Source of the DNA: a virus
DNA: 35,463 nucleotides
Strand: one strand, 5' to 3'
Virus record (IMG/VR): IMGVR_UViG_3300023435_000062
Location: 1-35,463 of that record
The notes under the pieces were generated by a model. That model was given only the letters and a program-made list of their open reading frames with translations, had not been told where the DNA came from and did not search any database. Shown here in pieces: positions 3,590-35,463 of the stretch. Position 1 is the first letter of the stretch; each line of letters opens with the position of its first letter. Both the position numbers and the translations under genes were made by a program.

Positions 3590-3610
3590 CCTTTTTACAG
3601 GAGAAAGAAA

Positions 3611-7063: not shown

Positions 7064-7080
7064 AGATGTATCAGAGCCTA

Positions 7081-7568: not shown

Positions 7569-7575
7569 GTGATTT

Positions 7576-10210: not shown

Positions 10211-10211
10211 A

Positions 10212-10230: not shown

Positions 10231-10242
10231 CAGGGAGACCCC

Positions 10243-10554: not shown

Positions 10555-10584
10555 ATTTTTAATCTAACAAAAGGAGGAAGGAAA

Positions 10585-11505: not shown

Positions 11506-11518
11506 GGAGGCATTTGTT

Positions 11519-11851
11519 ATGGCTTTAATAGACATGAAAAGGCCGAAGGAAAAGAAAAGCTCGAATATGGAAGTGGCATCTGTTGATGAAGGCGAAAGGT
11601 ACCCCTATGGTCTGCGGATCACGCTGGAAGATGCCGAGCTTGGCAAGTTGGGGATCAGCGTTAAGGAATTAGATGTTGGCAAGGAATTAAGCATTAATGC
11701 GATTGCCAAAGTTGATAGGCTTGAGGATAGGGATAGCAGAAATCAGGGGCATAATCAGAGCGTGAGCTTGCAGATAATCAAACTTGATGTTGAAAAACCC
11801 AAAAGCAAGACTGCGAAGCACTTTAGCAATTTAAGGAGAGGACCGGGTTAA
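11519..11851 (+). CDS. Capsid-staple-like small head protein
   Basis: The 110-residue protein starts with Met-Ala-Leu-Ile-Asp-Met-Lys-Arg-Pro and has a conserved-looking centre with Tyr-Pro-Tyr-Gly-Leu-Arg, then a KLGIS turn and a C-terminal SVSLQI strand. This order resembles small proteins encoded beside the scaffold gene in short-tailed phages, some of which have been described as capsid staples. The ATG at 11519 follows AAGGAGG. A longer frame from 11480 would overlap the secreted-protein gene and lacks support. The assignment rests on my memory of the family pattern and is moderate. Confidence 0.5.
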   Translation: MALIDMKRPKEKKSSNMEVASVDEGERYPYGLRITLEDAELGKLGISVKELDVGKELSINAIAKVDRLEDRDSRNQGHNQSVSLQIIKLDVEKPKSKTAKHFSNLRRGPG

Positions 11852-12090
11852 TGCTTATCCAATATCCACTTACCGAGGATGAGTTGAATCAACATTTACA
11901 AAATCCAGATACTAACCATTTGGTTGTTTCTATTTTATGGTTGGCTCAGACATTAAATGCCCCAAAACCATTTCCTGCGGGGAATCTTCCAGGCGAAGAT
12001 CCAGAAGAAATGATCGAGAGGCTAAAGAAGGAAGGAAAAGATTTTACCGTTACTAGGTATGGCCCAAACGCAAACAAGGAAAAAGGTTAA
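11851..12090 (+). CDS. Small hypothetical protein, 79 aa
   Basis: The protein is not recognised. A hydrophobic helix (residues 22-36, containing Trp) is followed by a Pro/Gly-rich bend and a charged C-terminal helix. Start and stop both share one base with their neighbours (TAATG at 11849-11853 and 12088-12092), which places it firmly in the head operon. AAGGAGAGG upstream serves as its ribosome binding site. Confidence 0.55.
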   Translation: MLIQYPLTEDELNQHLQNPDTNHLVVSILWLAQTLNAPKPFPAGNLPGEDPEEMIERLKKEGKDFTVTRYGPNANKEKG

Positions 12091-12488
12091 TGCCACTCTA
12101 TGACTATGAATGCAAAAGATGTGGGCACATCACCGAAATAATAAGGCCAGTGGATGATGTGATTATAGGGTGCCCCAAATGCAACAATGGGGTGGCCACC
12201 AGGATCATATCTGCGTCTGGCGTTAATTGTGCCAATGAAGATGCTGCGTGGATCAGATCGGTGAGAGAGGTAGTGGAAAAGGGCACAAATAAGCCCCATT
12301 GTGTTGAATTCCTGAAAAATCCTACCCGGTCAACTCTGAAAAACTGGATGAAGGGCGAAGGATTAAGACACAAGGAAGACGGGGAAGATCGAAGGCCGAG
12401 CAAAAGTGAAACCACAGAGGAACACAGGAAAATAACTCAATTACTCAAAAAAAAGAAAGAGAGGGAAAAAATTGTCGTCAGAGGATAA
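12090..12488 (+). CDS. FmdB-type zinc-ribbon protein
   Basis: The N-terminus is a typical FmdB-family zinc ribbon: Met-Pro-Leu-Tyr-Asp-Tyr-Glu-Cys-x2-Cys-Gly, with the second pair CPKC at residues 28-31. Residues 43-90 form a second part with Trp and Cys residues, and the last 35 residues are a Lys/Glu-rich helix. Proteins of this kind occur in phage head operons between portal and scaffold. Their role is not settled. The start overlaps the preceding stop by one base. Confidence 0.7.
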   Translation: MPLYDYECKRCGHITEIIRPVDDVIIGCPKCNNGVATRIISASGVNCANEDAAWIRSVREVVEKGTNKPHCVEFLKNPTRSTLKNWMKGEGLRHKEDGEDRRPSKSETTEEHRKITQLLKKKKEREKIVVRG

Positions 12489-12684
12489 GGATATTGAAAC
12501 AATCTTGGGGAGTACCGGAAGAACCCTAACCGGGTTAAGTGAGCAGAAGTATTCCGGCAAGGTAAATATCCAGTTTAATATGTCCAAGGGAGGCATAACA
12601 GATGCCTTTATGAATCTCTACACCCGAATGGGTTTAAAGAAAAAGGAGAAAAAGAATGTCGAGAGAACATCAGACGATAAATGA
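12472..12684 (+). CDS. Small basic protein, 70 aa
   Basis: Unrecognised. The TTG start lies 17 bases inside the FmdB-type gene behind a GAGAGGGA site. The middle of the protein holds a predicted strand (VNIQFNM) and the C-terminus is Lys-rich. The end overlaps the scaffold gene by 29 bases, so its translation and that of the scaffold may be coupled. Confidence 0.45.
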   Translation: MSSEDKDIETILGSTGRTLTGLSEQKYSGKVNIQFNMSKGGITDAFMNLYTRMGLKKKEKKNVERTSDDK

Positions 12685-13597
12685 AACGGTTTTAACACCG
12701 GAATCAGGGCCCTCGTCAACCCCTGATACGTCAGCAGACACCTCTAAGGGATCGTCAGGCGCCGCAGACGCTAAAGGCGCAGATGGAGTGCAGACGTTAA
12801 ACGAGGATGGAACACCGAAAGTAGCAGGAAAAGAAGCAGAGGCAGGGAAAGAAGCAGAGGCAGGGAAAGGAAAGGGACTTGAGGGGGCTGAAGATCGGCT
12901 TGATAAGCATCCCCGGTTCCAAGAAGTGATCAAGGCCCGAAAGGATGCTGAGGGAAAAGCAGCAACCTTACTGGCAGAAAACGCAGCGCTAAAAGCGCAG
13001 ATGACAACGGTGCAACCGGCAAGGCCAGCCGAAGCCAAGCCCGATGGGAGGAATTATCAACAGGAATTGGGCGAGCTTAACAAAAAGCTAGATGAAGGCG
13101 ATATAGCACAGGGTGAGTATATGACAAAATATACAGAAATCATCCGAGCCGAAAGTAAGGACCAGGCACAGGCTATGATCGAAAGAAGTCAGCAAGAATC
13201 AAAGGTAAGCTCGCTTGAAGATCAATTCTTGAAAGATAATCCTGGCTACATGGAAGTATTTAAGACTGGAAAGCTGGATGCTATCAAGGCCGGATCTCCG
13301 ATCTTTGATAATATTTCAGCTTACAAAGAGCACCAAAGGCTCGAAGCAGAAGCAAGCGTTGAAACAAAAGTTAAAGAGGCGGTTGACGAAGCGGTAGAAA
13401 AAACGAAAAAGGAAATGATCGATCAGTTTAAGGCGAAAGGAAGTGCTGCTGTTTTGGGCGAAGGCCCGGCTGCGACTCCTACTGAAAAGTCGGCAAAGGA
13501 TAGCCCGGAAATGAAAACGCCAAAGAAATTTGGTGGCACTACGAATGTCCTGGCTAACAGGCTTGCTCAAAGAAGGAAGGCGAAGGCCGGTTTATAG
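12656..13597 (+). CDS. Scaffolding protein
   Basis: The 313-residue protein has no fixed-fold signature but the usual composition of phage scaffolds: a disordered N-terminus rich in Ser, Thr, Ala and Gly, long charged helices from about residue 75, and a basic C-terminus (last 12 residues rich in Arg and Lys) that would contact the capsid protein. Residues 59-71 contain two copies of an EAEAGK unit, an 18-base tandem repeat at about 12831-12866. It lies directly before the major capsid gene, as expected. AAGGAG at 12643-12648 sets the ATG at 12656. Confidence 0.75.
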   Translation: MSREHQTINETVLTPESGPSSTPDTSADTSKGSSGAADAKGADGVQTLNEDGTPKVAGKEAEAGKEAEAGKGKGLEGAEDRLDKHPRFQEVIKARKDAEGKAATLLAENAALKAQMTTVQPARPAEAKPDGRNYQQELGELNKKLDEGDIAQGEYMTKYTEIIRAESKDQAQAMIERSQQESKVSSLEDQFLKDNPGYMEVFKTGKLDAIKAGSPIFDNISAYKEHQRLEAEASVETKVKEAVDEAVEKTKKEMIDQFKAKGSAAVLGEGPAATPTEKSAKDSPEMKTPKKFGGTTNVLANRLAQRRKAKAGL

Positions 13598-13619
13598 TTT
13601 TTAACGGTTACTTGGTAAG

Positions 13620-13636
13620 TCGCTGAATTATAGCGT
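13620..13636 (+). other. Small hairpin upstream of the capsid terminator
   Basis: CGCT at 13621-13624 and AGCG at 13632-13635 enclose a seven-base loop. It lies between the scaffold stop and the terminator and could form a structured untranslated region with it. The stem is short, so this is tentative. Confidence 0.3.
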
Positions 13637-13647
13637 AACTTCGAGAG

Positions 13648-13687
13648 TCCGATGGGAGAGTTGTTTTTTCTCTATCGGATTTTTTTA
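13648..13687 (+). terminator. Intrinsic terminator (or attenuator) between scaffold and capsid genes
   Basis: TCCGAT (13648-13653) pairs with ATCGGA (13674-13679), and AGAG (13657-13660) with CTCT (13670-13673), leaving a three-G bulge and a T-rich loop. A run of seven Ts (13680-13686) follows directly. The capsid ribosome binding site AAAGGAGG comes about ten bases later, so transcription of the capsid gene must either read through or start very near. Confidence 0.7.
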
Positions 13688-13709
13688 TTTTAGAAAGGAG
13701 GAAACGAAG

Positions 13710-14681
13710 ATGATCTTAGAAGAACTCAACGAAATAACCAATGATTATTTCTTGCTTGAAGATGGGTCGGCAACGGACATCTATTTCACCACATCATTCC
13801 TAGTGGATTATCTGATGAAGCAGCAGAATGGTCTTTGGGAAAGGCCGAATGGCGGTAAGAAAATCAGAGTACCGCTAGAGTATGACGAGAGCGAGGGTGG
13901 CTGGTATCAGAGGAATGACCCCCTGTCAAGTGATGATCGGGAGATCATAGATGCTGCGTACTTTGCCTGGAAGCACGTTTATGGCAACGCAACTATTTAC
14001 CGGACAGACTCCCTTTACAATGCCGGTGAGTATGCGGAAGTGCAGCTCGTAACTTCAAAGGTTAAGAATGCACAAAAAACCGCCAGGAATAAGATTGCGA
14101 AGACTATCTACTCTGCATCTGGTGATGCAGCTTCATCTCTTACGGGGCTGCTTTCGTGTTGTAGCGCAGCGACTACCACGCCATACGGTGAAATTACCGA
14201 GGACGGTCTTGTGGCTGCTGATGGCACAAAGAGGTGGAAAGGTAACGTCAATGCCACAGGTGGCACAATCACCCTGGACATTATCAGGACAATCGCATCC
14301 GAGGCCAAGATCCACGATGGCACAGATGGCAAGCCCAACCTGGGAACAACTACCGAAGTGCTTTTCAATAAGGTTAATAGCCTTCTTCAAACACAGCAAC
14401 GCTATGTGAAAGAGGAAGATAGTGTAAAGGCCGGTTTCTTGAGACTCGTTTTTGAGGGGAAAATTATTGCTGCTGACGATTATGTTCCAACTGGTTACTA
14501 CTTCAACATGAACGGCAATCACATCGGTTTTGGTATCCACGCCAAAGGCTATTTTGCGAGAACGGAATGGATGGATCTGCATGGGCCAGCCGGTCAGACC
14601 ATGAAAGTCTTTTGGGATGGGAACATGATTTGTAATCACCGGCTTGCTCAAGGCTGCGGTAGTGGCTTAACGCCTACATAA
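13710..14681 (+). CDS. Major capsid protein
   Basis: At 323 residues, in the right place after the scaffold and with a strong GGAGG site, this is the best candidate for the shell protein. The N-terminal helix and strand (residues 1-35), the long extended segment around residues 38-70, the helix of conserved KNAQKTARNKIAKTIY type near residues 117-132 and a beta-rich C-terminus agree with HK97-fold proteins of short-tailed phages. A GGLWERP-like Pro/Gly segment (about 39-48) occurs in related capsid proteins. It is encoded after a terminator, which suggests separate dosage control. Confidence 0.8.
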   Translation: MILEELNEITNDYFLLEDGSATDIYFTTSFLVDYLMKQQNGLWERPNGGKKIRVPLEYDESEGGWYQRNDPLSSDDREIIDAAYFAWKHVYGNATIYRTDSLYNAGEYAEVQLVTSKVKNAQKTARNKIAKTIYSASGDAASSLTGLLSCCSAATTTPYGEITEDGLVAADGTKRWKGNVNATGGTITLDIIRTIASEAKIHDGTDGKPNLGTTTEVLFNKVNSLLQTQQRYVKEEDSVKAGFLRLVFEGKIIAADDYVPTGYYFNMNGNHIGFGIHAKGYFARTEWMDLHGPAGQTMKVFWDGNMICNHRLAQGCGSGLTPT

Positions 14682-14716
14682 TTTAACCCTCAGAACTAGA
14701 AAGGAGGAAATTTGCA

Positions 14717-15430
14717 ATGAATGAACCTATGAAAACTACATTTAGTCAAAGCATCTATGCACAAAGCTCGGTTAGGAAAGAGATTTTGGGATGCTTGAGG
14801 ACTTTGGACGATGGCAGAAAGTTCAACTATGCCAGAGCCGGTGGGATTGCGCTTACTGCCGGTGCGCCCGTTGAGGGCGTTGATGCGGTAGGCCACCATT
14901 GGAACCGTGCGGTAGTTGGAACCGCCATTGCGGTAGGGTCAACGACTGTACTCGTAACCCTGGGCGCAACCTTAGTAACAGAAAATCAGTATCAGTTTGG
15001 ATTTTTACAGATCAACGCTGGTGCTGGAATTGGAAGATCCTATCGGATTGCAAGCCATCCGGCTGCTGCTCTTTCCACCAATGTTCTCATCCAGTTAGAT
15101 GAGCCTATCGGGGTCGCTCTGGCTGCTGCAACTTCAAAAGCATCTTTGATTTATAACGATTTTCAAGATGTTGTGGTTTCTACTGCTGCGACTAAAACCC
15201 CTGCCGGCGTACCGCCTATCGCAGTTACCGCAGAGTATTACTTTTGGAGTCAGACTTTTGGACCGGCGGGTGCGATTGTGGATAATGCTGTAGCAGTAGG
15301 AACAGAACTGTCCGGTGGCGCGGGAATACTCGCAGCGAGAACAGCCTGGACCGACAACAGCTATGGTTTTTGCCGAGGGACTGCTGGTGTTACTGCCGAG
15401 TTAAAGCCGGTTATGTTGACAATGGGCTAA
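14717..15430 (+). CDS. Probable capsid decoration or head-associated protein
   Basis: The 237-residue protein follows the capsid gene behind AAAGGAGG. It is rich in Ala, Val, Gly and Thr with many short strands, a composition common in head-decoration proteins. Conserved-looking segments include FNYARAGG near the N-terminus and GRSYRIASHP in the middle. I do not recognise a specific family. The strong ribosome binding site and placement imply high expression together with the capsid protein. Confidence 0.55.
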   Translation: MNEPMKTTFSQSIYAQSSVRKEILGCLRTLDDGRKFNYARAGGIALTAGAPVEGVDAVGHHWNRAVVGTAIAVGSTTVLVTLGATLVTENQYQFGFLQINAGAGIGRSYRIASHPAAALSTNVLIQLDEPIGVALAAATSKASLIYNDFQDVVVSTAATKTPAGVPPIAVTAEYYFWSQTFGPAGAIVDNAVAVGTELSGGAGILAARTAWTDNSYGFCRGTAGVTAELKPVMLTMG

Positions 15431-15476
15431 GATTTTGTTGTCAACCGGTTAATCAAAAATCGGGTAGGGGGTAAAG

Positions 15477-16124
15477 ATGAAATTAGGCGATCTGGTCGAA
15501 GAAATACTTAATATTGTCCAGGACCCATCGATTGATGCGAAAAAAGTAAAAAGCCTTGTAAATGATGGAATCTTGGAGGCGGCTTCACGTTCTGATACCC
15601 CCCTACCCGATCTTGAAATAAGTGAGAACGTAGAAACAAAAACTGATCGAGCTTGGGTTACACTGCCGGCGAATTACCACAGAAAGCTGAATTTCTGTTA
15701 CAGCGTAGCTCAAAATGGTCGAGTGAAGATCCTGAAAAGCCTTCAACATCTCAAATCTAAATATCCTGGGCTCATTCAAACAGGGAATGTCTGGCATGTA
15801 ACTCAAAGTGGTGGAAGGATCTATTACCAGGGGATCCCGAGTACGGTTGACACCTTAACGCTCGGCTACTACAAATTGCCACCCATTCTCAACAAGGATG
15901 ACGAGACACCCACCTTTCTCCCAAACCATCTTCATAAAAAATTGCTTGTCAACTATGCGTGCAAGGAACTATTCAGCGTTATCGAAGATGGAGTTGAAGG
16001 GAGAAAAGTAAATACCAGTTATCACGAAGGGGAAGGGGAAAAGGCTTTGGCAGATCTTGAGAAGTTTCTCGGTCCGGAACAAGATGAACCTAAACTAATA
16101 AACGACATGCTATGTCTGTCTTAA
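15477..16124 (+). CDS. Head-tail adaptor (P22 gp4-like)
   Basis: The 215-residue protein has the pattern of podoviral connector proteins that sit under the portal: an N-terminal helix pair with an LVNDGILEAASRS region (27-39), a WVTLPANYHR strand (59-68), an IYYQGIPSTVDTLTLGYY segment in the middle, and a C-terminal helix that packs on the portal. The order adaptor then hub also matches P22 gp4-gp10. It ends by overlapping the next gene by 13 bases. Confidence 0.65.
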   Translation: MKLGDLVEEILNIVQDPSIDAKKVKSLVNDGILEAASRSDTPLPDLEISENVETKTDRAWVTLPANYHRKLNFCYSVAQNGRVKILKSLQHLKSKYPGLIQTGNVWHVTQSGGRIYYQGIPSTVDTLTLGYYKLPPILNKDDETPTFLPNHLHKKLLVNYACKELFSVIEDGVEGRKVNTSYHEGEGEKALADLEKFLGPEQDEPKLINDMLCLS

Positions 16125-17041
16125 CCATACTGAAAGCAACCAAAGGGCTAAACACAAAACATGATCCAGCCAGGCTAAAGTATGACCCCGAAGTGGGAAT
16201 CCAGGAATTACCGGTAGCAGTAAATATTGACGTTGACGATACTGGAAGACCATCGAGAAGGAAAGGGTTTACCAGGCAAGCAGCCGGATCATTTCACAGC
16301 CTGTTTTGTGATAGTGGAACTGCCTTGATCTGTAGCGGTGGCGGTCTTTTTGTGCTTCATCCTGATTACACGAGGACAGGCATAAGGAATGTTACTGCTG
16401 GCAAAAGGATGAGCTATTGCCAGATCGATGATAAGATCTACTATACGAATGGCTATGAAACCGGGTATGTGAAAAATGAAGTAAGTTATGCGTGGACAGT
16501 CTTAACTTACTATGGCCCGGACACGAAGAGAGTGCTTTCCGGCCCACCGATAGGGAAGCATCTTGAGTTTTACAATGGGCGAATCTACATCACGCAAAAA
16601 GATGTAGCGTGGTATTCAGAACCCCTTGACTACAACAGTTTTGATCTCCACAAGAACTTTCTTCAATTCCCCTCTACCGCAATAATGATAAGGGCGGTTA
16701 AAGACGGTATTTATGTTAGTACCGACAAGGCAACCTATTTCTGTTTTGGCCCTAATCCAGACGAGGGGCTTGATTGGATCATGGTAGCCCCTTATCCAGC
16801 GATAGAATATTCTGAAATAACGATTAATGGGCGAATGATTGTAACTCAAGAAGGAGATCCGGTAATCGATACTACTGTTAATGAGAAGGCTGCCATGTGG
16901 GTATCGACAAAAGGGGTTTGTTACGGTGGATCAAGCGGAAGGTTTGCGAACATCACACAAGAGAAGATTGATCTTCCCACAGCTTTAATCGCAAACAGTT
17001 TTTTAGTAGACGATAAGTTTTTGACAACTTTAGAACCCTAA
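16112..17041 (+). CDS. Tail hub / stabilisation protein (P22 gp10-like)
   Basis: The 309-residue protein starts with a region typical of gp10-like tail proteins, with an NIDVDDTGRPSRRKGF motif (38-53). It continues with repeated strand blocks containing IDDKIYYTNG and EFYNGRIYI that look like blades of a beta-propeller. In P22 the equivalent protein binds below gp4 and closes the channel. It is shorter than P22 gp10 (472 residues). The ATG lies within the adaptor gene, so the two are probably co-translated. Confidence 0.6.
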   Translation: MSVLTILKATKGLNTKHDPARLKYDPEVGIQELPVAVNIDVDDTGRPSRRKGFTRQAAGSFHSLFCDSGTALICSGGGLFVLHPDYTRTGIRNVTAGKRMSYCQIDDKIYYTNGYETGYVKNEVSYAWTVLTYYGPDTKRVLSGPPIGKHLEFYNGRIYITQKDVAWYSEPLDYNSFDLHKNFLQFPSTAIMIRAVKDGIYVSTDKATYFCFGPNPDEGLDWIMVAPYPAIEYSEITINGRMIVTQEGDPVIDTTVNEKAAMWVSTKGVCYGGSSGRFANITQEKIDLPTALIANSFLVDDKFLTTLEP

Positions 17042-17055
17042 AAGGAGGAAGGCAA

Positions 17056-17805
17056 ATGGCTTTAAGACTTTCAACGGGGATACGAAACAATATGCTTGGG
17101 GATGTGGCGCTTGTTGGAGGGGCGGTGATCGGTGCTGGCATGAATTTTGATGATAATGACGCTAGCGAGGACACCATCACCGATGGTGGAACTGGCTTTG
17201 TAGCTGCCGGGTTTATGGTTGGTGATATACTTTTTTGCCAGGGTGCGACAACTGGTGCGAATGATACTGCTATAACAGGGGCGGTATTAACTGCGGTTGC
17301 TGCTGGACTACTTACCTTCGCAACTGGAACGGTTGATACTGACGAGGCTGGCGCAGCTGGAACGGTTGTTGCCTATGCAAGAGGTGGATCACTAAAAGAC
17401 CGGTTCAAAAACGGTGTCCTCCGGATTTATAGCGGATCACAGCCAGCCAACCCCGATACTGCGGTGGCTGGCACTCTGCTTATCGAAGTAACTGTTGCGA
17501 GTGGTGTATTTGCTCATGGCGCAGAAGCAAACGGACTTGAATTCGGTGCTGCTGCGAGTGGGGCAATCGACAAGGATGCCGATGTATGGTCAGGTGTTGG
17601 TCTTTCTGCCGGAACTGCTGCATGGTTCAGATTGTGTGCTAATCCAAACGATGCTGGCGGTGCAAGCACTACCCTGGATAGAATTGACGGAACAGTTGGC
17701 ACAAGTGGTGCGGATCTGAATATAACCAACACCACGATAGCAGTAGGCGCAACCCATACAATCGATCAGTTTCAGTTTACCTTACCGTTACAGTATGGCT
17801 CTTAA
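17056..17805 (+). CDS. Beta-rich virion protein, 249 aa
   Basis: The sequence is rich in Gly, Ala, Thr and Asp. The C-terminal two thirds (about 110-249) contain a recognisable phage structural pattern: a GVLRIYSGSQP strand, an ANGLEFGAA turn, a WFRLCAN strand and a RIDGTVGTSGADLN segment ending in FTLPLQY. I know this pattern from short-tailed phage structural operons but cannot name the role. A strong AAAGGAGGAAGG site precedes the ATG. It is likely an exposed head or tail part. Confidence 0.55.
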   Translation: MALRLSTGIRNNMLGDVALVGGAVIGAGMNFDDNDASEDTITDGGTGFVAAGFMVGDILFCQGATTGANDTAITGAVLTAVAAGLLTFATGTVDTDEAGAAGTVVAYARGGSLKDRFKNGVLRIYSGSQPANPDTAVAGTLLIEVTVASGVFAHGAEANGLEFGAAASGAIDKDADVWSGVGLSAGTAAWFRLCANPNDAGGASTTLDRIDGTVGTSGADLNITNTTIAVGATHTIDQFQFTLPLQYGS

Positions 17806-17827
17806 TCCCTAACCGGAGGCATACTGA

Positions 17828-18745
17828 ATGGCTACAGAAACATTAGATTTAGGGATTGATGCCCTATTAAACTCTACAGATGAATCCGGCTTTGTTTTCC
17901 TTGATGCCATCCTGATTACTACTGAACATGGCAGCTTGGATGCAACTTTGCCCGACCTGCAACTCACCGCAGAGCAAGGGGGGGCAAGGAGTGATGCCAA
18001 CCTTCCTGATCTACGGTTAAGCGGTCAGTTTGGCGAGAATGGCTGGACAGGGAATAGGGGGCTTGAAGATTGGGGTCTTAATCTTCCGGTCCTTGAGCTT
18101 AATGCTACCTTTGGCGAAAGGGTAGAGCTTGAGAAAGACATACCTGGTCTGGAACTGGAAGCCCGGTTCGGGTTAAGGCTTGACGATCTGGAACTTCTCC
18201 CCGATTTAAGATTATCTGCAAGTGCATCGTGGGAAACCTTCTTATCGCTCGACGAAAAACTCCCACAGCTTACCTTAAACGCTGGCAGATCAGGCGGTCA
18301 ATGTGATGAAAACCTACCGAACCTCACCATTTCTGCGACTTTCTCAACAGACGTTACCGGGGGTTTAACAAAAGACCTTACCTTCCCCACCCTTTCAGCC
18401 AGCATGGTGACTCCCTATACTGGCACATTGAGTAAATCCTTAACATTTCCCACTTTAATTGCATCGGCAATATCAGATGCCAGGGGAAGCCTATCGGCTA
18501 ATCTGCCTGGGCTTCAATTAGCTACTTCTGCCTATGCTGGTGGGATTGGAACGCTTGACGCAACCATGCCGGATCTTCAAATAACTGCAACCGGCTATGG
18601 AGAAGAAACAGCGACACTAGATGCTAGCCTCCCGGCAATTCAGATGGGGGCTGGTACGAGTGGGGGAACAGGGGGGCAGAGTGGTGGGATAATGTCAAAT
18701 AAGGACAGGTTTACAGATTATGTAATGAGGTATTCAAGATGGTAA
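17828..18745 (+). CDS. Repeat protein with about 12 LPxLxLxA units (probable tail fibre or solenoid)
   Basis: From residue 41 to 275 a unit with the core (L/I/F/M)-P-x-L-x-L-x-A recurs about twelve times. The Pro positions fall roughly every 18-27 residues (42, 60, 87, 106, 125, 146, 164, 187, 208, 227, 248, 270). Between the cores lie short acidic-polar turns such as DATLPDLQL and DENLPNLTI. Regular short strands with turns suggest a beta-solenoid or trimeric beta-fibre. The C-terminus ends in a Gly/Ser-rich linker and a distinct basic-aromatic tag (residues 291-305, NKDRFTDYVMRYSRW), possibly an attachment or assembly tag. It is probably a host-facing tail part. Confidence 0.6.
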   Translation: MATETLDLGIDALLNSTDESGFVFLDAILITTEHGSLDATLPDLQLTAEQGGARSDANLPDLRLSGQFGENGWTGNRGLEDWGLNLPVLELNATFGERVELEKDIPGLELEARFGLRLDDLELLPDLRLSASASWETFLSLDEKLPQLTLNAGRSGGQCDENLPNLTISATFSTDVTGGLTKDLTFPTLSASMVTPYTGTLSKSLTFPTLIASAISDARGSLSANLPGLQLATSAYAGGIGTLDATMPDLQITATGYGEETATLDASLPAIQMGAGTSGGTGGQSGGIMSNKDRFTDYVMRYSRW

Positions 18746-20641: not shown

Positions 20642-22618
20642 ATGATAGGTTATCCAAGTACAATTACAGGTAGTGGGGCATCACATGCTAGTAGTTTGGC
20701 AGGCACTCGTTTTAACCTTGGCACTTTTTCAGTTTCTGCGGCCTATAGTAATTTTACAGCAGCGCTTGAATCATTGAGAGAGATGTCGGAGGAATTCCCC
20801 TGGCCTTACGACCCTATCCCCTTTGATACTGTTGACCTCATGGGGCTTGATGGATTTCGTTTATACGATCCAGAACCGCCAGACATAGAAGATATTGACG
20901 TTCAACTACCCCCCTTCCCACATACTCCCCCTGAAATGCCAGCGTTTCAATTCGATGCTGTGGACATTCCTACTTTTGATGTGGTTGTTCCTGCGTTCTC
21001 CATTCCAGATCCACCTGATGTGGTTTGGCCTACTTTAGACACTGAACCGCCAACACCAACAGACATAACTATTCCAACAGCACCAAGCATTACTTTACCA
21101 GCACTCCCAACGCTTGATGGTATAAGCGTTCCTTCTCCCCCTGAGATTACCATGCCAACATTTGAAGGGGTTGCACCATCGATGGACCTTACACCGCCAG
21201 AACCAGCATTTTCATGGGATGAGGCAGATTATGATAGCGATTTAATGCAAGAACTGAAATCAAAACTCCTTCTCGATCTTCAAAACGGAGGATCAGGGTT
21301 AGGTGCTGTAATCGAACAGGCAATATGGGATCGAGCGCTAGAAAGACAGGAAGTAGAAACTGAAAAGACCTACAATGAAGCGTTAAATATGTGGTCAGCT
21401 AAAGGCCATTCATTACCCCAGGGCGCTCTTGTAAGTAGATTGGCAGAAGTGAGGGCAAGGATCGACCAACTTAACGAAGATCTCAACAATGATATTCTAA
21501 TCCAAGAATCCAAATTAGCACAGGAGAATACACATTTTATTATTAAGGCAGTAGTCGATTGGGAAAAAACCTATATGACCCACCTAAGCGGTGTCCAGCA
21601 AAGAGCATTAGAGGCTGCTGCGAAAACCGTAGAAATGGCAATAATGATTTATGGTGCGAAAGTCGAGGCTTACAAGGCTCAACTTGAAGCATACAAAACC
21701 TATGCACAGGTATTTGAATCAAGGATCAGGGCAGAGATAGCAAAGGTGGAGATCTACAAAGCACAGGTTGAAGGGATTAAGGTTTCTGTCCAGATCCAGG
21801 CAGCCCTTATAGATGCTTATAAAGCTCAAATCGCAGGGATCGCTACGCTTATTGATTTATATAAAGCACAGATGGAAGGGGCGAACATCCAGGCTCAATA
21901 TGATGCGACAAGAATACAGGCATATAAAGCTGTTGTAGAAGCCTATGGTATAAGGGTTGGTGCTATTACCAGCCGATATAACGCATATCAGGCACAAATA
22001 GGCGGTGAAGCAGAAAAAGCCAATATGTATAAGACACAGGTTGATGCCTATTCTGCAAGGATCGCTGCCTCTAAAGTTGTTGCGGATATTGATATGACGG
22101 AAATGCAATTAAGGGTCGAGCATAACAAAGGAGAAGTTCAGACATACTTGGGATTGATCGAGAAGTTCAAAGCAGATATTCAAAGAGCGATAGCAGAAGC
22201 CGAAATGATTGCGAAAGAGATGGGATACAAAACAGATGTATATACCGCAGAAGTAGGAGAGTTTAGCGCAAAAGCCGATGCCCTGTCTAAAGTGTATACT
22301 GGCCGGGTATCGGAAAGGGTGGCAGAGTATGATGTTCGGGTAAAAGAATCAGAGATCTACATGAAAAAATCAGTTGCACTTTATGAGTTGCAAGTCGAAA
22401 GCATGAAAGCTGCTGCACAAGTATCAGCACAGATTTGCGCCTCTGCCATATCTTCAGCTAGTGCATCTGTTCATCTTGGGTTAAGCGAGTCAAGGTCAGA
22501 CTCAAGAGCTGGATCTGCTGTTAATTCGGAGAGTGACAGTAGCGTAAAATATACCGAAGTAAAGGCTGGCGTAAAAAGGTTTAGTGATAACGTACAACAT
22601 ATTTTCCAGGGCGAATAA
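20642..22618 (+). CDS. Pro-rich and helical-repeat tail protein, 658 aa
   Basis: Two contrasting halves are visible. Residues about 50-195 are Pro-rich with short repeats of the type (I/V)P-x-(P/F), likely an extended or spike-like part. Residues about 200-590 are long helices with repeated (A/I/L)-YKAQ-(L/V/I/M)-(E/D/A) motifs that recur on an 11-residue-like spacing, for example in 335-470, and should form an elongated coiled bundle. The end is Ser-rich (about 595-630). The architecture fits a tail needle or shaft, or an internal protein that extends during DNA ejection. GGAGGA just upstream supports the ATG. Confidence 0.5.
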   Translation: MIGYPSTITGSGASHASSLAGTRFNLGTFSVSAAYSNFTAALESLREMSEEFPWPYDPIPFDTVDLMGLDGFRLYDPEPPDIEDIDVQLPPFPHTPPEMPAFQFDAVDIPTFDVVVPAFSIPDPPDVVWPTLDTEPPTPTDITIPTAPSITLPALPTLDGISVPSPPEITMPTFEGVAPSMDLTPPEPAFSWDEADYDSDLMQELKSKLLLDLQNGGSGLGAVIEQAIWDRALERQEVETEKTYNEALNMWSAKGHSLPQGALVSRLAEVRARIDQLNEDLNNDILIQESKLAQENTHFIIKAVVDWEKTYMTHLSGVQQRALEAAAKTVEMAIMIYGAKVEAYKAQLEAYKTYAQVFESRIRAEIAKVEIYKAQVEGIKVSVQIQAALIDAYKAQIAGIATLIDLYKAQMEGANIQAQYDATRIQAYKAVVEAYGIRVGAITSRYNAYQAQIGGEAEKANMYKTQVDAYSARIAASKVVADIDMTEMQLRVEHNKGEVQTYLGLIEKFKADIQRAIAEAEMIAKEMGYKTDVYTAEVGEFSAKADALSKVYTGRVSERVAEYDVRVKESEIYMKKSVALYELQVESMKAAAQVSAQICASAISSASASVHLGLSESRSDSRAGSAVNSESDSSVKYTEVKAGVKRFSDNVQHIFQGE

Positions 22619-22889: not shown

Positions 22890-22904
22890 AGGGAGGACTT
22901 GGAA

Positions 22905-23996
22905 ATGGCCATGTATGGATTAAGGGATGAATTTTCTAGCTTTAATAAAAGGAGAGGCCCTGACATAAGAGCCAGGGTTAGGTCTTTCCTTGATCGCAGG
23001 AAAGAAGGGTATGCCGGGGTAAAACAAAAGCTCAAGGGAATAGCCGGGTACATGCCGGAAGCCTATTATAGAGCAACTTCTTTAGGGGGAGGAAGGTCTA
23101 AAGAAACCCCTGCCGGTCCTACCCCCTTGTCTGGCAGAGGCGTTAATCCTGGTGAAAGAATGAGGGAGGTTGCCGGAACTGCAAAGTTGCCAAGAATTTC
23201 AAGCGAAATTACACCTAAAAGAGTAGCCAATGTTCTCGAAGTCGGGGGTAAGGCTTTATTAAAAAGCGGTGGGAATCCTCTTTTGGCTGCTGGCGCTGCT
23301 GGTTATGAAGTAGGACAGAAACTAAAAGGACCTGGTGGAACTGCCCCGGAAGCACTTGCACAACCGGATGATGGAACACAACCATTGGGCTTTAGGTCAT
23401 TAATGATAGATGCAAAATCAAGAGAACCGGATCTCACCAAAAGGGCAACGGAAGTGGCTGCCGGTGGAAAATTCCAGCCGGATTTTAATAAAGCCTGGTG
23501 GTGGCTTGATGAACGGTTGGGGAAAAGCAAACCGATCAGAGTAATACAGGGAACGGAAAGCCATTGGGTAAGCCCGATTACAGGCGGGAGTTACGCTACC
23601 CCAAAAGAAGCGTATGAAGGAGTAGGAATTGATGTAAAAGCAGTACAGGCAGAAAGAACGCATGAGCTGGCGGTAGAAAGATTAAAGGGTAGATATGGAT
23701 TGCTTGAACAGCAAGCAAAACCTTTTAAGAGGTATGAGGAATTAGGATCAAGCCCAATGGGTGAACCATCTATTTTAGATCAGCTTACTGGAGGTGTTTC
23801 TACTCCTGGAGCTGGATTGCCAGGGGGCGCACAGGAAGGACTTGACGCTGTTGCAGATGCCCTTAGTGCTGCCGAACCGGAGGTTGCAGCGACTCAATTA
23901 GCTTCTATTCCTGACAAAAAACAGAGAAATGCGATTTTTAATCTCCTGCCAACAGAAAAGCAGAAGAAGATATTGAAGATATGGAGAAGCCTCTAA
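22905..23996 (+). CDS. Probable internal or ejection protein, 363 aa
   Basis: The start is chosen at ATG 22905, eight bases after GGGAGGA. An upstream in-frame TTG (22899) and a later ATG (22911) are alternatives. The protein has a basic N-terminus, a Gly/Ala-rich hydrophobic stretch (about residues 105-140, LLKSGGNPLLAAGAAG) that could touch membranes, a Trp-rich region (190-200) and a helical C-terminus ending in a basic patch. This make-up, and the place directly before the giant polyvalent protein, match proteins packed in the head and ejected with the DNA. The role is inferred. Confidence 0.5.
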   Translation: MAMYGLRDEFSSFNKRRGPDIRARVRSFLDRRKEGYAGVKQKLKGIAGYMPEAYYRATSLGGGRSKETPAGPTPLSGRGVNPGERMREVAGTAKLPRISSEITPKRVANVLEVGGKALLKSGGNPLLAAGAAGYEVGQKLKGPGGTAPEALAQPDDGTQPLGFRSLMIDAKSREPDLTKRATEVAAGGKFQPDFNKAWWWLDERLGKSKPIRVIQGTESHWVSPITGGSYATPKEAYEGVGIDVKAVQAERTHELAVERLKGRYGLLEQQAKPFKRYEELGSSPMGEPSILDQLTGGVSTPGAGLPGGAQEGLDAVADALSAAEPEVAATQLASIPDKKQRNAIFNLLPTEKQKKILKIWRSL

Positions 23997-24009: not shown

Positions 24010-27000
24010 ATGCCTATACCATCGAAAGAAGAAATACAGGAGCTAGGACAGCTTATAAGAGGTAAACCCGGAAGGGCAACCCCTACTCAAAAAACTGGCA
24101 TAACACCGCCTGACCTCAAAATTCTTGAGGGCGTCCACCAGGAACGGTTGAAAAGGGATCGGAAAGAAGCCGTTGGGGAAAGATCTGCATTGGGCGAAAT
24201 AGCATTGGGTGTGCCGAGAGGCGTTGTTGGCGCTACTGAATTAACGGCGAAAGCTGGTAGGGCAGTAGAAGGCGCATTAATCCCTGGTACTGAAAGAGGT
24301 CCAATAGCAAACCGACTATTAACTCCTTTTCTTGAGGCGGTTGAAGAAAAAAGAAAAGTAAGCCCCTGGATGCAGACAGCACCAAGATACGAGGAAGGAA
24401 TTGTCGGGACCATATCACAGGGGACGGAGCAGGCCGTTCAGTCTATTATAGCCGGTATCCCAGGCGGTGTTGCCGGCAGAGCTTTAGGTGCAGGGATAGG
24501 CGCTTCTCTGGGGTCCGTCACATTGCCTGGCGTTGGCACCGTGACCGGCGCTACACTAGGTATGATCGGCGGTTATGCTTTAAGTGGCGGTACTATCTTT
24601 GGCCTGGCTCAATATGATGATGTGATAAGCAGAGCTGATGAAAAAAGAATACCTAGAGAGATAAGCCAGCCGGTAGCTATCAGATCGGCAATCTACGAAG
24701 GCGGCTTCGAGTTTATATCGGACCTCCTTGAAATGGGATTTATGAAAGTGGGAAAACCCCTTACCGCGCCAGCTCAACAAACAGTTAAAAAGGGGATAGG
24801 AGAATTATTCAAGGTAGGATGGAAAGGGTATCTAGCGAGGCTAGGCGGGGTTATCGGTGCGGAAGTGCCTACAGAAATGGCTACTGCTGCCCTGCAAGCT
24901 GAAGAAGAAAGGAAGATCGGGCTTGGCGAAACTAAAATGTGGGACGCAGCAAAACAGGCGTTTGGGCCTTCTCTTGTTGCCTCTGTTATTTTTGGCGGTA
25001 CATTCGGCACGATTAATAAACTTCAGAGAACGAATGTAAGGAGAAAACTAGAAAATCCGGATGCGCCAAAAGAGGATCGTAAAAAGGCAGCCCTTGAAGT
25101 CGAGCAGATCCTAAAAGAATTTGATCCGGAGATAGCCCAGGTATGGGGGCATAATGCCTTCGTAGCCATTGAAAACGGGGAGGCCATAAAAGCGGAAACC
25201 CCGATTGAAGAAGTTGGGGGATTTGCGCCAACCGCGCCAGCCGAAGAAGTGATCGAGGAAGCGCCTACCGTAACTCCACCCGAAGCGGAGTTAGCCACTA
25301 CAGAGGAAGATATTGAAAGGATCTATACCCCGGAGCAGCTCGCAGAGCTGGAAAAGGGAGCAGACAAAGGAATACAGGATCACCTAAATGCCCTCAACAA
25401 AAGAATTGCAAACCTTGAAAGCATGAAAAAGAGATCACCGAAACAAGAGGCCAATTTAAAGGCATATCAGGAAGAACGAAAAACCATCATGGAGGAACAG
25501 GGCTATGATAAGGAAGGTGAAGGGAGGCTACCAGGTGCAATCCGAGAAGGGGAAGAACCTGGGAGGCCCCTACAAGACCGAGAAGGCAGCAAAAAAGAGA
25601 TTAAAGCAGGTGGAATTTTTCAAACATCGGAAGGGGAAGAAATAGAAGTACCTGGCATCGAGTTTAGGGATGATATGACACCGGCTGATCTTGACGATCA
25701 ATGGGGCAAGATGGTTACAATTCAGGATCAGCTCACCGAGAAGAATGAACCCCGATTAAAGGAGATCGAGAAGGAACTTGCAGCCCTTAAAGGCAAACGG
25801 GAGAAACCGGATCAGGAGAAGCGGAAAGCATTAAGAGAAGAAGCGCAGAAACTAAAAGATGAACCGGCTGCTTTTATGGCTGGCGCTGAAAACAGTTTTA
25901 TCAATGCACAGGAAGATTTCAATGATCGGGTGATTGCAAAAGCGAAGGAGAGAGGGGTAGAGGATGAAGAAACCCAGGGAGAAATTGCCGAGCTTGCCGG
26001 GAGGATGCTGACGGAAAGACAGTACACCGAGCAGACCTGGAACTGGCCTATAAGCAAGGTAATTGATGAAGCGATTAGTGAATATGTAGAGCAAGAAGAA
26101 GCGGTGCCGGCAGCGCCGGAGAAGCCAGCCAAGGAAGCTGAAAAGGTAGGAAAAGAGCAAACAGAACAAGAAAAGCTACAAGCGATAGAGGAGTTCTTTG
26201 GTGGAGAAGAAAAGAAACCAAGAGAGAAGAAAGTAGGCGACAAGCTGAAAGTTGCGAATAAAGATGCCGTTGTGAAAAGGGTGCAGAAAATAGACGGGGT
26301 AGAATATGAGCTATATGGTGCGGGAGAGGGCGGTATCATTCGGATATTCGATACAGATGCGAATGAAGTAGTACAGGCAAAAACATTCCCGAAATTTGGA
26401 GATGCCGAAAAAGCCTATCTTGAGGCCGTTAAGACATTACGGAAGCCAGCCAAACCAACCAAAACCGGGAAACCCTACAAATCAAAGCCCGGAGATACCC
26501 CACAAGGAATTGTTAAGGCATTGGGCGGTATTTATATAGAAGAAGGGGGAGAGGCTGACTTTGCAAAAGTCAAGGAAGGTGGCGGTACGAACATAGGCAT
26601 AGTGAGTAAAGAAGGGCTACCCTTTGATATGTTAAGGGAGCGTTTCGTAGAAGAAGGGATAATTAACTCCGATACCACCTTATCTGATTTCAAGGTGTGG
26701 TTGAAAGACAACTGGACTAAACCTGTTACGGAGAAAGGTATTGAAAAAGCAGCAGAGGAAGAACATGCAAAAGAGATGGAAAGGCCGGAAGAAAAAGGTC
26801 TTGAGGAAAAAGTAATAGCGGATCTGGACCTTGAGGAAGGTGATGTTGTCTATACTGCCGGTGATATTTACAAGGTTAAGAAGGTTGCCGAAGGAGAAGT
26901 AACCCTAGAAGATGATTTCACCATTACCAAAGATGAATTTGACAAGATCACTCTTGAGAAGCCGGTTGTCAGGGCGAAAGACATTGGGAAGCTGCCTACA

Positions 27001-30000
27001 GAAGTAAAGAAGCAGTTGCATATCACAAAGAAGCCAGCCGAAGAAGTAACCGAGAAGAACTATCAAGATTATTGGGATAGTAAATTAAAATTGGGTCGCA
27101 AGGTAGAATTGGCAAAAGACGCTGGATGGATTACCAGGAGTGGCCAATTATCAAAATTGGGAGAAAAAATATCATCATCAAGATGGGAGGAGCTTTCTCC
27201 TGCAGCACAAAATGTATTAAAGCCAAGGATTGATAATTTATATAAGCCCGGAGCCAAAACCAATCCGGTATCCGAGTGGGTAGTTGAGCAGATAGGCAAA
27301 AAGAGGCTTTTCGTTGCCAAAGATCTATTCGACCAGGCCGACAAACATTTTGGTGGCACACAGGCCCAGGGGAAATATGTTGCGAAAGATGCCTATGATC
27401 TGATGGAATTGGGCGTTAATCAATACCTGGATCAAGTCGATCTAACCTCTAATCCTACTGCCGATATAAAACAAGCGAAACAGATCGTTGTTGCATTAAA
27501 GCAGCTCGTCAACAAACTCCCTACCCAAACTAAGAGGACCGAGGAATCAGACGAGTTTCAGCAATTCTCCACCCCCCCTCACCTGGCCTTTGTGGTTAAT
27601 TGGGCTGCCAACCTCAATAAAGATGATGTGGTCCTTGAACCATCCGCAGGGATCGGGGGGATCGCAGTATTCGCTAAACAAGCCGATGTATCAAAGGTAA
27701 TCGTAAACGAGCTTTCTAAAAAAAGGCTGGACCTTCTTCAGCAACTTGATTTCGATGAATACTACAACTTAAACGCAGAGCAGATTGATAACACCCTTCC
27801 CGATACCGTAAAGCCAACGGTAGTCGTAATGAATCCCCCCTTTAGCTCTACCGCCGGTAGGATGGAGGGGAAAAGAGATACTAAATTCGCTACCAGGCAT
27901 ATTGAGCAGGCTATGGCAAGATTGGAACCTGGGGGAAGGCTGGTTACCATTGTTGGCAAGGGAATGGGCCTTAATTCACCGGTCTTCAGGGAATGGTGGG
28001 ATAAGAAAGATTACAATGTAAGAGCCAACATCAGGATAAGTGGCCGGGAATATAAGAAGTACGGCAATACCTTTGACAACAGGATAATAGTTATTGACAA
28101 AACAAGTAAAAAAGCAGATAATATAATAACAGGCAAAGTCGAAAAGGTTGAAGATTTATTGCCTTTATTGGAGGGAATAAGAAATGACCGAGCCTATCCC
28201 GCAAAACAACTCACCACTCAACCAACTGGCGAAAAAACACCTACTGAAAGTGGACAAGGAGTACAGCGACCGGCATCTGTACCATCTCCAACTGGCGTTG
28301 TGGGCATTGGACAAGGGGGAGGTGGAACTGAAGGACAAAAGGCCCCTGCTGGTGAACGTGGAGGAACTGCTACTCCAGTGGAAACCGGAGAACGCCCACA
28401 AGTTCCTACTTCTAAACCAATCGGAGGACAACCTGGAACCCCAACTGGTGAACGAGAAGGCAAGCCCCCAGGAGTTAGCCCTGGGCATACTCCAAGTGCT
28501 GGACAGCAAGCTAGTGGAAAGCCAGACGAACTATCCAAGCGCAAGCGACCTACCCTAAAACCCAAGAAATTTACCGATTCAGTTTTCGAGGATTTTGAAC
28601 CGGAACAAGCTCGAATAGAAGGCTCGAAACCTCACCCTACCCCATTAGTCCAATCGGCAGCCATGGCTGCGGTTGAGCCTCCAGGAACAGACTACATCCC
28701 CAACCTACCAAAAGAACCCATCAAGTCAGGCGCTTTAAGCAGCGCGCAGCTAGATCCTATTATCGGCGCTGGTCAGGCCCATTCCGAAATATTGCCGAAT
28801 GGAGAAAGAAGGGGTTATTTCATCGGTGATGGCGCAGGAGTGGGAAAGGGCCGAGAAATTGCCGGTATCCTTTGGGATAATTGGAACAGAGGCAGGAAAA
28901 AGGCTGTATGGGTTTCTGCGAAATGGACACTTTTTGAAGATGCCAAGAGAGATGTAGAGGACATTGGATGGGATAAAACCCTTCTTTTCAAACAAGGGCA
29001 TGGGAATTATAAAATATCAGATGAATTTAAAGAAGAAGAAGGGATTGCCTTTACTACCTACAATACTTTAGTGAAGGAAAAAGGCGAAGAAGAAACCGAG
29101 GTATCCCGATTAGAGCAGATCAGAAAATGGTTTGGTGAAGATTTTGACGGAGCAATCGTCTTTGACGAATCGCACAAAATGGGAAATGCCCTGGAAGTAA
29201 AAGGAAAGATGGGAATCTCAAAACCCTCCCAAACTGCACTAAAGGGTATCGACTTTCAAAGGGCGTTTCCTAACGCCAGACTTCTCTATGTATCAGCCAC
29301 AGGCGCAACGGAAGTATTGAATCTTGCGTATGCTGAACGCCTGGGGTTGTGGGGAGAGGGGACGGCATTCGGGAAGAAAACCTCTTTTGTCAATCAAATA
29401 GCGAGTGCCGGTCTTGCAGCCATGGAGCTTGTGGCCAGGGACCTAAAGGCATTCGGCAGTTATGTTTCCCGATCACTTTCTTTTGATGGAGTTGAATACC
29501 AAAGAGTTGAACACAAATTAAACGAAAAGCAGAAAAAAGAATGGGATATAGTTGTAGACGCATGGCAAATGGTACTTGACAATATTGAAGATGCCCTGGG
29601 CGTAACCTCACAGGATTCAAACTCGAAAAGCAAAAGATCTATTAATTCTCGTTTTTGGAATGAACACCAGAGATTTTTCAACCAGGTCCTCACTACCATG
29701 CAGATGCCTTCGGCCCTGGAACATGCCAAAAAGGAAATAGAAAAGGGAAATGCGGTTATCTTCCAGCTCGTTAATACCAATGAGGCCCAACAGCAGAGAT
29801 CATTTGCAAAAATGCAGGAAGGTGATGAGATAGAAGATCTCGACATGACCCCGAAGGAAAGGCTTATTGACTTTGTTGAAAATGGCTTTCCTACTCAACA
29901 ATACGAAGAATTCACAGATCCAGATGGGAATACTCGCTCAAGGCCATTGTTTAATGCGGATGGCAGCAAGATGGTTAACAAGGAAGCCATGCGCTTGAAA

Positions 30001-33000
30001 GAGCAACTCTTAAACCAACTTTCCGGGCTAAAGGGGTTAGCAGGTCCCCTTGATGCTCTTATTGATTTTTTTGGCGCAGACAAGATTGCTGAAGTAACAG
30101 GGAGGGGCCGAAGGGTTGTAGTAGATCCCAACACAAAGAAAAAGATAATACAGAAAAGATCACCGAGTTCAATAAAAGCAGAAGTTGATGATTTCCTTGA
30201 CGATAAACTACAAGCCCTAGCGTTTTCCGATGCTGGTGGAACAGGGGTAAGCTATCACGCTGACAGGCGATATAAAAACCAGAGAAAGAGAATCCACTAT
30301 GTTCTTCAAGCTGGTTGGAGAGCTGATAACGCAGTTCAGGGAATGGGGAGATCTCATAGGTCAAATGAGGCCCAACCGCCCGAATATGTGCTAGTGCATA
30401 CCGACCTTCAGGGTCAAAAGAGATTTATCTCGACCATTGCCCGAAGGCTGGATCAGCTTGGCGCATTAACAAAGGGGCAAAGACAGGCCGGTAGTCAGGG
30501 AATCTTTAAGGCAGCCGACAACCTGGAAAGCTCTCATGCCAGGGATGCCCTACGAGTATTTTTAAGAGACATTGTAAGTGGAAAAATCCCCGAAATTTCC
30601 GTTGAAGAATTTGAAAAACAGACGAGGTTAGAAATAGTTGACGAGCATGGGAACATACTCTCAAATCTTCCAGAAATGAATCGGTTTTTAAACCGGCTAC
30701 TTAACCTCAAAGTTGATTTTATGGATAAGGTCTTTGATGCTTTTGAGCAAAGGCTACAAGACAATGTAAGGGCGCATGAGGAAGCAGGTACCCTTGATGT
30801 AGGCATCGAGAATCTTACGGGTCAGAGCGTTGATAAAGCAAGTGAGCAAGTAGTATATACGGATGAAAGAACAGGCGCAGAAACGAAATATGTTGAGCTA
30901 GACGTTGTTAAGCCAGCAGAGAGATTAACCTTTGAAGATGCCAAAAGTCATTTTAGGGGTGGGAAGGGATTTTACCAAAACAAGCAAAGTGGAATGGTAT
31001 GGGTATCTTCAAAAGAGCGAGATCATACTGACCTTACTTCGGGTGTTGCAAGAAGGGTCTTTCATCTTGTTAATGCCGGTAGCCATAGACAAAGAGTATA
31101 CACATCCACCCTTGAAGATAGCGATAAGTGGGAACATCTGACTCCTGAAGAAGCAGCGGGGATTTGGGATAAGGCATATAGTGAGATGCCAGCTACCAGG
31201 ACCGAGCGACACAATCTTGTTACCGGTGCGATACTTCCCGTGTGGGATCGGCTCCCGACCAAACATACCAGGGTATTAAGAACACAAACATCGGAAGGAG
31301 AGCTTCTTTTAGGCCGAGTTGTTCACCCCAATGAAGTACAGGAAACCTTAAAGAAACTAGGGGCAACTGCAACCGGAGTAGAATTAAAACCATCGGAAGC
31401 CTTTGATAAAATTTACAATGAACGGTATCAGGCAGAGCTTTCAAATGATTGGAAAATCGTCAATCGCAGGGTAGCCGGGGAATCGAGAATAGAGATTATT
31501 GGCCCCGATTGGGAACACACAGAAGAATTAAGAAAACATGGAGTATTTACAGAGCGCATAAATTATAATCTTCGTTACTTTATCCCGGTAGGCGATCAAG
31601 GCATTAAAACCTTTGAAGCAATCATCAAGAATCGGCCCATCATCCAAATAACCCCGCCATCTTCTGCCCGGTTTGCCAGGGCAGCTAAAGAGGCTACCGG
31701 AATTCCTGTTGAGGAAATAAATAATACAATCAACCCCATCTTAAAAAACCTCAAAGGATTAACCCCTGGGGTTAATGTGGTAAATTCAATCTCCGAACTG
31801 TCTTCAGAGCTGCAAAAGGAGGCAAAGAAGGTAGAAGGCGCAGGGGTAAAGGCTGTATTCGACAAGGAAACCAACGAAATAACGCTTGTTGCCGAAGGAT
31901 TTTCAAGTGTTGATGAGGCCAAGGAAGCACTTTTCCATGAGCTGTACGGCCATTTTGGCGCAAGGAGGCTTTTTGGCAAGGCTTTTGATCCTTTCCTGGT
32001 ACAAGTCTATAATTCCTATGGGCCTAAAAAGTTAAAGGACATCGCAGATCTCTATGGACTTGATTTCAGCAAAAAGGAAGATCGGCTTACCGCAGCCGAA
32101 GAAAAGCTGGCACAGATGGCCGCGAAAAATGAAAAGCCTGGCCTTTTAAGAAGGATATATGCCTATATCAAAAACTGGTTGCGAAAGATGGGGTTTAACT
32201 TCAAGATTACCGATGATGATCTCAAGATAATTGTTTGCGCAACAAAAAGGGCTATAGAGGAAGGATATGACATCGGAGAATTAAGGGGTGCTGCAACAAA
32301 GTTTGCCAGGGAAAGAGAGCCGGTAGCGGTGAAGGCCGAAAAAGTCCTCAAACAATTCCCCGTAAAATATGAAGGGATACAGAAAGGCTTTATGGGGCAG
32401 GAAGATGTAGTTGCCTTTAAGGACAGGAAGAAAAAGCTGCACTTTATACCGGTATCAGAGTTTAGCGAGGAAGCAGTCAGGAAGAAATTAGGGATTAAAG
32501 AGCCTTCAAAACAAATGGGTTTTAAGTTTGCCAAAGAGAAAGAGGTATCTCCCACTAAAGAGCCGATGGCAGCGCTACCCACTCAAGTAAGGCCGAGGAT
32601 CGAGGCAGCGAGAGGGATACCTAAAACACCTATATTGGAGAGAGCAGAAAGACTAGGAGAGAAGATAAAGGCATCTACAACTCGTCATTTTGCAGATCTC
32701 GATCCGAAACTTCACGCATATGCTATAAACCAGTTGAGAAGGTTTCAGGAGATCGGGGAAGCGACAAAAGAATCGGCCCTTAATTTTCTAAAAGATACCC
32801 TGTCTGATTTAACCCCGGCTGAATATGATGCGTTCTCTATGAATCTACTTTTGTCCGATATGCTGCATGATATTGATGCTATCTCCGATCCGGAAACCGG
32901 CAAACGGTTACTAGATCCGGCTGACGGACTTCCCTTTGAATTTAAAGACAGGGCAGAAGTAGTCAGCACGTTGAATAAGTTTAAGAAGATGGCAGAAGAA

Positions 33001-35463: not shown

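Follow-up and report, generated by a model that had tools for sequence, protein, structure and literature searches.

A single frame of 3,818 codons fills the last third of an uncultivated viral contig, which raises the questions of what kind of protein it encodes and what that protein might do for the virus. The window analyzed here is a whole IMG/VR virus record of 35,463 bp, and the giant gene, its domains, and the two genes described directly before it lie on its plus strand. The giant gene (24010..35463) begins with ATG, contains no stop codon, and is still open at the right end, where it is cut by the end of the contig. A relative on contig L002 forms a complete frame (6683..18442, 3,919 aa), and in the alignment it is 65% identical to the window protein over residues 1083-3818. 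The N-termini of both proteins read MPIP..EEIQ, and the L002 protein continues for 63 residues past the last codon of the window. Because this relative is complete, we take the missing 3' end of the window gene to encode about 63 C-terminal residues, giving an expected protein of ~3,880 aa. The nearest relative with the same overall organization is found on two other contigs, L002 and L003. Between the giant genes of the window and L002, the first, second, and third codon positions differ at 0.26, 0.19, and 0.47, respectively, with dN at 0.26 and dS at 1.35. Since third positions are the most changed and dN is smaller than dS, the whole giant gene is under purifying selection.

The center of the protein is a methylase-helicase unit (residues ~1101-2547). 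It opens with a DNA methyltransferase of the gamma class (N6-adenine type; residues ~1101-1417, 27310..28260), assigned from Pfam, alignment, and motifs. The Pfam match is to the MTS methylase family (E 3e-5, above its cut-off), and the motifs comprise an N-terminal FGGTQAQG, QFSTP at residue 1185, EPSAG at residue 1210, and the catalytic NPPF at residues 1275-1278 (27832..27843). The TP and NPPF motifs are typical of gamma-class adenine methylases. The segment N-terminal to the methylase is conserved as FGG(T/S)xAxG, which is not literally GXGU, the LPD36 motif. A Strawberry-notch type SF2/SWI2-SNF2-like helicase follows (residues 1541-2267, 28630..30810; Pfam and alignment), in which AAA_34 (residues 1541-1846, E 2e-112) and Helicase_C_4 (residues 2013-2267, E 4e-82) both score far above their curated cut-offs. 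As in Strawberry-notch SWI2/SNF2 ATPases generally, these two families occur together with an intact Walker A (GAGVGKGR, residues 1608-1615, 28831..28854), a DExH-type Walker B (DESH, residues 1719-1722, 29164..29175), and motif VI (QGMGRSHRSN, residues 2110-2119, 30337..30366); a VSATG motif lies at residue 1761. The C-terminal end of the unit (residues 2268-2547, 30811..31650) is common to the plasmid proteins described below. A preliminary description of this DNA had proposed one uninterrupted frame encoding a polyvalent protein with methylase, Strawberry-notch helicase, and metallopeptidase, all with intact motifs. The open frame, the Pfam matches, the location of every named motif, and the zincin model presented below bear this out, with the correction that the methylase-helicase unit reaches ~residue 2547.

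The architecture of the unit is of the DarB type, with a TP/NPP(Y/F) adenine methylase of EcoKI/TaqI-like type fused C-terminally to an SF2 helicase. The helicase itself belongs to the Strawberry-notch Pfam families and not to the DarB family, and for this reason we file the protein as one that most likely works like DarB, not as DarB. A tblastn search with the helicase against 50,697 isolated-phage records gave no match at E 1e-3. Giants of isolated phages were matched in the methylase part only, with ~26-35% identity over part of the domain.

Among viral contigs, a scan with the single protein recovered only L002 and L003, and two-sequence alignments added none; relatives of the unit were found by searching with a phage-plus-plasmid alignment (A4). 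They occur on at least 226 uncultivated viral contigs, whose viral status is that assigned by IMG/VR, and 80 of these contigs were kept. The kept set holds 61 frames complete at both ends, 58 of which encode proteins of 2,677-6,160 aa with the unit inside. The methylase-helicase unit recurs as a core part of giant proteins across uncultivated viruses. The combination that had appeared suggestive in the single sequence is thus not unusual, as the same central unit is found in giants on many such contigs. These frames also bear on whether the giant is an artefact of assembly or sequencing, either two fused genes or a frame with a hidden stop, as could be suspected of a gene at the end of a single metagenomic contig. 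The relatives of the same overall organization on L002 and L003, the 58 complete frames built around the unit, and purifying selection throughout the gene already contradict this explanation, including the hidden stop or frameshift that the preliminary description had named as its own refutation, and we consider it hardly credible. The giant gene is real, and it is intact up to the contig end.

Downstream of the unit, residues 2566-2753 (31705..32268) form a zincin-like metallopeptidase domain with HELYGH at residues 2643-2648 and a glutamate at residue 2698. The peptidase motif is present as first noticed, in the form HExxxH and not as the classical HExxH; Iyer et al. 2017 (PMC5512222) report this variant in one group of peptidases from polyvalent proteins. 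In an alignment of 18 sequences, both histidines, the glutamate, and the downstream glutamate (2698) are conserved, giving the motif HEx(2-3)H...E. A Pfam search with the domain returned no match. The AlphaFold2 model of the peptidase (pLDDT 87, pTM 0.83) has a core of helix, three strands, helix, and helix. Its matches, which are mostly zincins, include the lethal factor catalytic domain, IrrE/PprI, plasmid ArdC, MATCAP, and Wss1. The top solved matches in VIA-align are zincins with a best Z of 7.2, where values below 8 are weak when taken alone, and the E-values of a Foldseek search with the model were likewise not significant alone. It is the motif, the topology, and the consistent list of matches that jointly identify a predicted zincin fold, of the kind expected of polyvalent-protein zincins. 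A zincin was recognized in 20 of 81 giants, and it stands N-terminal of the unit in two of them (L042 and L047).

The protein ends in a helical block of ~1,000 residues (residues ~2851-3818 plus ~63 off the contig; 32560..35463), which is one conserved block and not two unnamed parts. It is uncatalogued, as searches against Pfam, PHROGs, and PDB sequences gave nothing significant, tblastn with the blocks of the window and L053 found no match in isolated phages, and the LPD38 model of Pfam (PF18857) had 0 matches at its gathering score in the block family of the window. Profile-profile comparison by hhalign aligned the window-type block with the LPD38-type block at a probability of 95% (E 2.5e-8), whereas an unrelated profile used as a control reached 0.3%. 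LPD39, tried as a relative of the window-type block, gave a weak hhalign probability of 13% and was set aside. The structure model of the block is only moderately confident (pLDDT 71, pTM 0.64). Foldseek with this model returned 42 viral matches at E <= 1e-3, many of the named ones being called large polyvalent protein associated domain, and nothing significant in the PDB. Judged from profile and model, the block is remotely related to LPD38, which is a phage-specific domain (Iyer et al., PMC5512222). The stretch of residues 2750-3340, which had been left without a name, can now be placed by the profile-profile comparison and the structure model as the first half of this remotely LPD38-related terminal block. 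When 59 C-terminal ends of giants were compared, 16 were of the window type, 17 of a second type, whose tested members match Pfam LPD38, and 15 of a third type, two of which match LPD39. The block is interchangeable with LPD38 and LPD39 blocks among the giants.

The N-terminal segment (residues 1-347, 24010..25050) has a glycine-rich hydrophobic stretch near residues 145-195, is weakly tape-measure-like (phrog_794, E 4e-5), and is common to only a few giants. A simple Kyte-Doolittle scan of the giant showed no hydrophobic transmembrane helices, only a glycine-rich stretch, and comparison of the giants revealed no common N-terminal packaging motif. Residues 348-1080 (25051..27249) form a Lys/Glu-rich charged region with no named domain, conserved only in the nearest relative, L002. 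The other stretch that had been listed as unnamed, residues 390-1015, is ~28% Lys/Glu, occurs only in that relative, and stays without a name.

The giant gene is the last of a run on the same strand that includes the genes of the terminase, portal, major head protein, and head-closure protein. The window gene is thereby linked to packaging and late genes, and its product joins several biochemically unrelated domains in one polypeptide, both of which characterize polyvalent proteins. Directly upstream lies a 365-aa gene (22899..23996) that is conserved in the nearest relative and has no family match, and within the virion module a 658-aa gene (20642..22618) belongs to phrog_10969 (E 3e-105). 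Homologues of the latter occur in Hollowayvirus phages and in podovirus ctwe8250, with a giant gene shortly downstream. The giant of Hollowayvirus Epa33 (3,799 aa) is annotated as 'structural protein 5' and is followed by holin and lysis genes, and that of ctwe8250 has 2,166 aa. Both share with the window their placement after this homologue, but they are without the Strawberry-notch helicase, and the Epa33 giant has an LPD39-type end. As a side observation, the product of 20642-22618 is a possible loading partner of the giant. Elsewhere in the window, a gene for a RusA-like resolvase is closely preceded by one for a radical SAM domain protein (1956-2789; phrog_9298, E 1e-22). A small ORF upstream of the portal gene contains a 165-nt duplicate of the portal gene 3' end (6872-7036 versus 9956-10120, 78%), and two neighboring small ORFs have a common 69-nt start region (6772-6840 and 7081-7149, 91%). 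Scans of the window for promoters and terminators remained at chance level.

Beyond viral contigs, the unit is 45-47% identical over its full length to proteins of Methylomonas and Thioflavicoccus plasmids. The protein of Methylomonas sp. LL1 (WP_230874547.1) aligns throughout residues 1101-2547 with 45% identity (47.5% in the core). As in the window, its unit is fused to an HExxH peptidase region within a large protein (3,236 aa), here beside tra genes; the LL1 gene adjoins traI, traF, and topoisomerase genes. The plasmid proteins differ from the phage giant in their other parts, which in LL1 are ArdC-like and primase-like by eye, and others are stand-alone proteins of ~1,400 aa; in place of such parts, the phage giant ends in a block of phage type. 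Among the 80 best matches in cellular genomes, 65 fall in frames of 1,200-1,800 aa, for the most part from Alphaproteobacteria; five assemblies, including Syntrophaceae, Humidesulfovibrio, and Magnetococcales bins, hold giants that end in LPD38 or LPD39 blocks. The trees of the methylase and of the helicase both place the Methylomonas and Thioflavicoccus plasmid units among the viral-contig units, next to L058, and the unit thus appears to move between plasmids and phages, in one direction or both. We also observed that L058, L083, L010, L011, and L102, with plasmid units grouping within viral-contig units, point to plasmid-phage exchange. On an Azospirillum plasmid (L012:7272-14170), the methylase-helicase gene stands alone, with a type I-E CRISPR-Cas operon on one side and, on the other, a gene whose annotation is phosphorothioated-DNA-binding restriction endonuclease; the methylase-helicase gene might belong to a defence locus there.

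Within the phage giants, the helicase shows a separate pattern of divergence. Between the window and L002, the methylase and zincin segments share 79% and 84% of their amino acids, respectively, and the helicases 55%. Identity at fourfold-degenerate sites reaches 0.65 and 0.67 on the two sides of residues 1480-2520 and falls to 0.29 within them, close to the chance expectation of 0.26 (Fisher p 4e-10 and 2e-10). Synonymous sites in this segment (~nt 28447-31569) are thus saturated relative to L002, while those of the flanks are not. Furthermore, the helicases of the window and L002 are approximately as close to those of other contigs as they are to each other. The pattern points to a segmental exchange in which one of the two lineages had its helicase replaced by a diverged homologue, and the case is based on synonymous divergence and not on tree topology. 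A different tree position of the window helicase compared with the methylase was looked for and not found, as both group with those of L002, and the helicase tree pairs the window and L002 with a support of 97. Given this grouping, the donor of the exchange would have been a related lineage, or else the segment evolves unusually fast; the latter, which would have to extend to synonymous sites, is the less likely alternative.

Comparison with characterized phage proteins gives an indication of what the giant may do. In phage P1, DarB is located in the head and forms part of the Dar system, which is carried by the virion and protects P1 DNA from type I restriction (PMC9024508). JC1 gp69, a DarB-like protein of 4,515 aa from a Bcep22-like podovirus, was found in purified virions with 51 unique peptides, and its gene stands at the end of the morphogenesis module (PMC9144972). 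Both resemble the window protein in methylase-helicase architecture and giant size, and JC1 gp69 also in being encoded by the last gene of the structural module; both have been demonstrated in virions, and the window giant differs from them in its Strawberry-notch helicase. Like the polyvalent proteins of Iyer et al. 2017 (PMC5512222), the window giant combines many unrelated enzymatic domains in one polypeptide encoded beside packaging genes, including a methylase-helicase dyad, an HExxxH zincin, and a terminal block remotely related to LPD38; by sequence, the block of the window falls outside the Pfam LPD domains. Because the helicase is not of the DarB family, the antirestriction role is carried over by architecture, and by this analogy the window giant most likely works like DarB. 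The methylase-Strawberry-notch unit is also found beside tra genes on plasmids and so suits elements that transfer DNA in general.

Taken as a whole, we read the giant as a polyvalent protein that a podovirus-like phage makes late and associates with its virion, packaged and ejected with the DNA and carrying a DarB-like unit and a self-processing zincin, a reading to which we give a probability of about two in three. The giant would probably be loaded into the capsid and ejected together with the DNA, and delivery of this kind, as already proposed in the preliminary description, is well supported by analogy with the JC1 virion protein and the structural-module position in podoviruses. The Strawberry-notch motor would translocate on the entering double-stranded DNA, and the fused N6-adenine methylase would mark or shield that DNA in cis against host restriction. 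The zincin would most likely cut the giant into working units, either in the capsid or after entry, and the C-terminal helical block and the glycine-rich N-terminal segment would most likely serve packaging and ejection. Since the C-terminal block has no match among solved structures, we treat its packaging role as conjecture, and in P1 the capsid-targeting signal is N-terminal, not C-terminal (PMC9024508). More tentatively, and with clearly less than even confidence, the block could be an uncatalogued phage-specific docking module for packaging or ejection to which the LPD38 and LPD39 blocks are alternatives. The making of new giants would then consist in exchanging the cargo (methylase-helicase units of plasmid type, peptidases, and others) that lies between this block and an N-terminal part specific to phages.

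Other readings differ in what the delivered protein does, or in whether it is delivered at all. Once delivered, the zincin could cleave a host protein as an effector instead of serving as a processing peptidase, in line with the target cleavage initially suggested. There are zincins that act as effectors, solved zincins with effector and regulatory roles resemble the predicted fold, and host cleavage is listed as a possibility by Iyer et al., whose main argument is nevertheless for self-processing (PMC5512222). In addition, the zincin sits between other domains and shifts its position among the giants, as expected of a processing module, and was recognized in only a minority of them, so that we regard the effector role as unlikely and processing of the giant as the better account. 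A delivered giant might also use its unit to start phage gene expression or replication, as a RapA-like remodeller that clears the incoming DNA and for which methylation is a mark, and not to escape restriction. RapA and other SWI2/SNF2 relatives have a role in the recycling of polymerase, and establishing transcription is the primary early challenge of phages according to Iyer et al. (PMC5512222). The adenine methylase fusion, however, is the signature of DarB, and conjugative elements, which face the same restriction problem, carry the unit as well; we therefore consider this role distinctly unlikely.

Alternatively, the giant could be made late without being a virion component and act on phage or host DNA before packaging. 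Its membership in the virion is derived by analogy, which leaves some room for this explanation. The position of the gene in the structural module, the remote relation of the block to a phage-specific terminal domain, and the detection of DarB-like giants in the virions of JC1 and P1 all speak against it, and we judge it very improbable. Protection of the entering DNA by a packaged, DarB-like giant remains our preferred reading.

The class of proteins to which the giant belongs, proposed to enter the host together with phage or plasmid DNA and to protect it, has already been described, and Strawberry-notch versions were noted 'in a few instances', e.g., Methylomonas WP_020485828.1 (Iyer et al. 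2017, PMC5512222). New here are the frequency of the Strawberry-notch version among uncultivated viruses, the assignment of the terminal block, and the signs of modular exchange. Because few polyvalent cases are known, isolated phages gave no match to the helicase, and the unit nevertheless occurs on such a large number of viral contigs, the Strawberry-notch DarB-like machine appears to be a counter-restriction device that has been overlooked and is probably widespread in environmental phages. The link between the plasmid and phage units points to traffic of anti-defence machinery between both kinds of element, and the interchangeability of the terminal blocks gives a starting point for tests of how giant enzymes may be loaded into virions.
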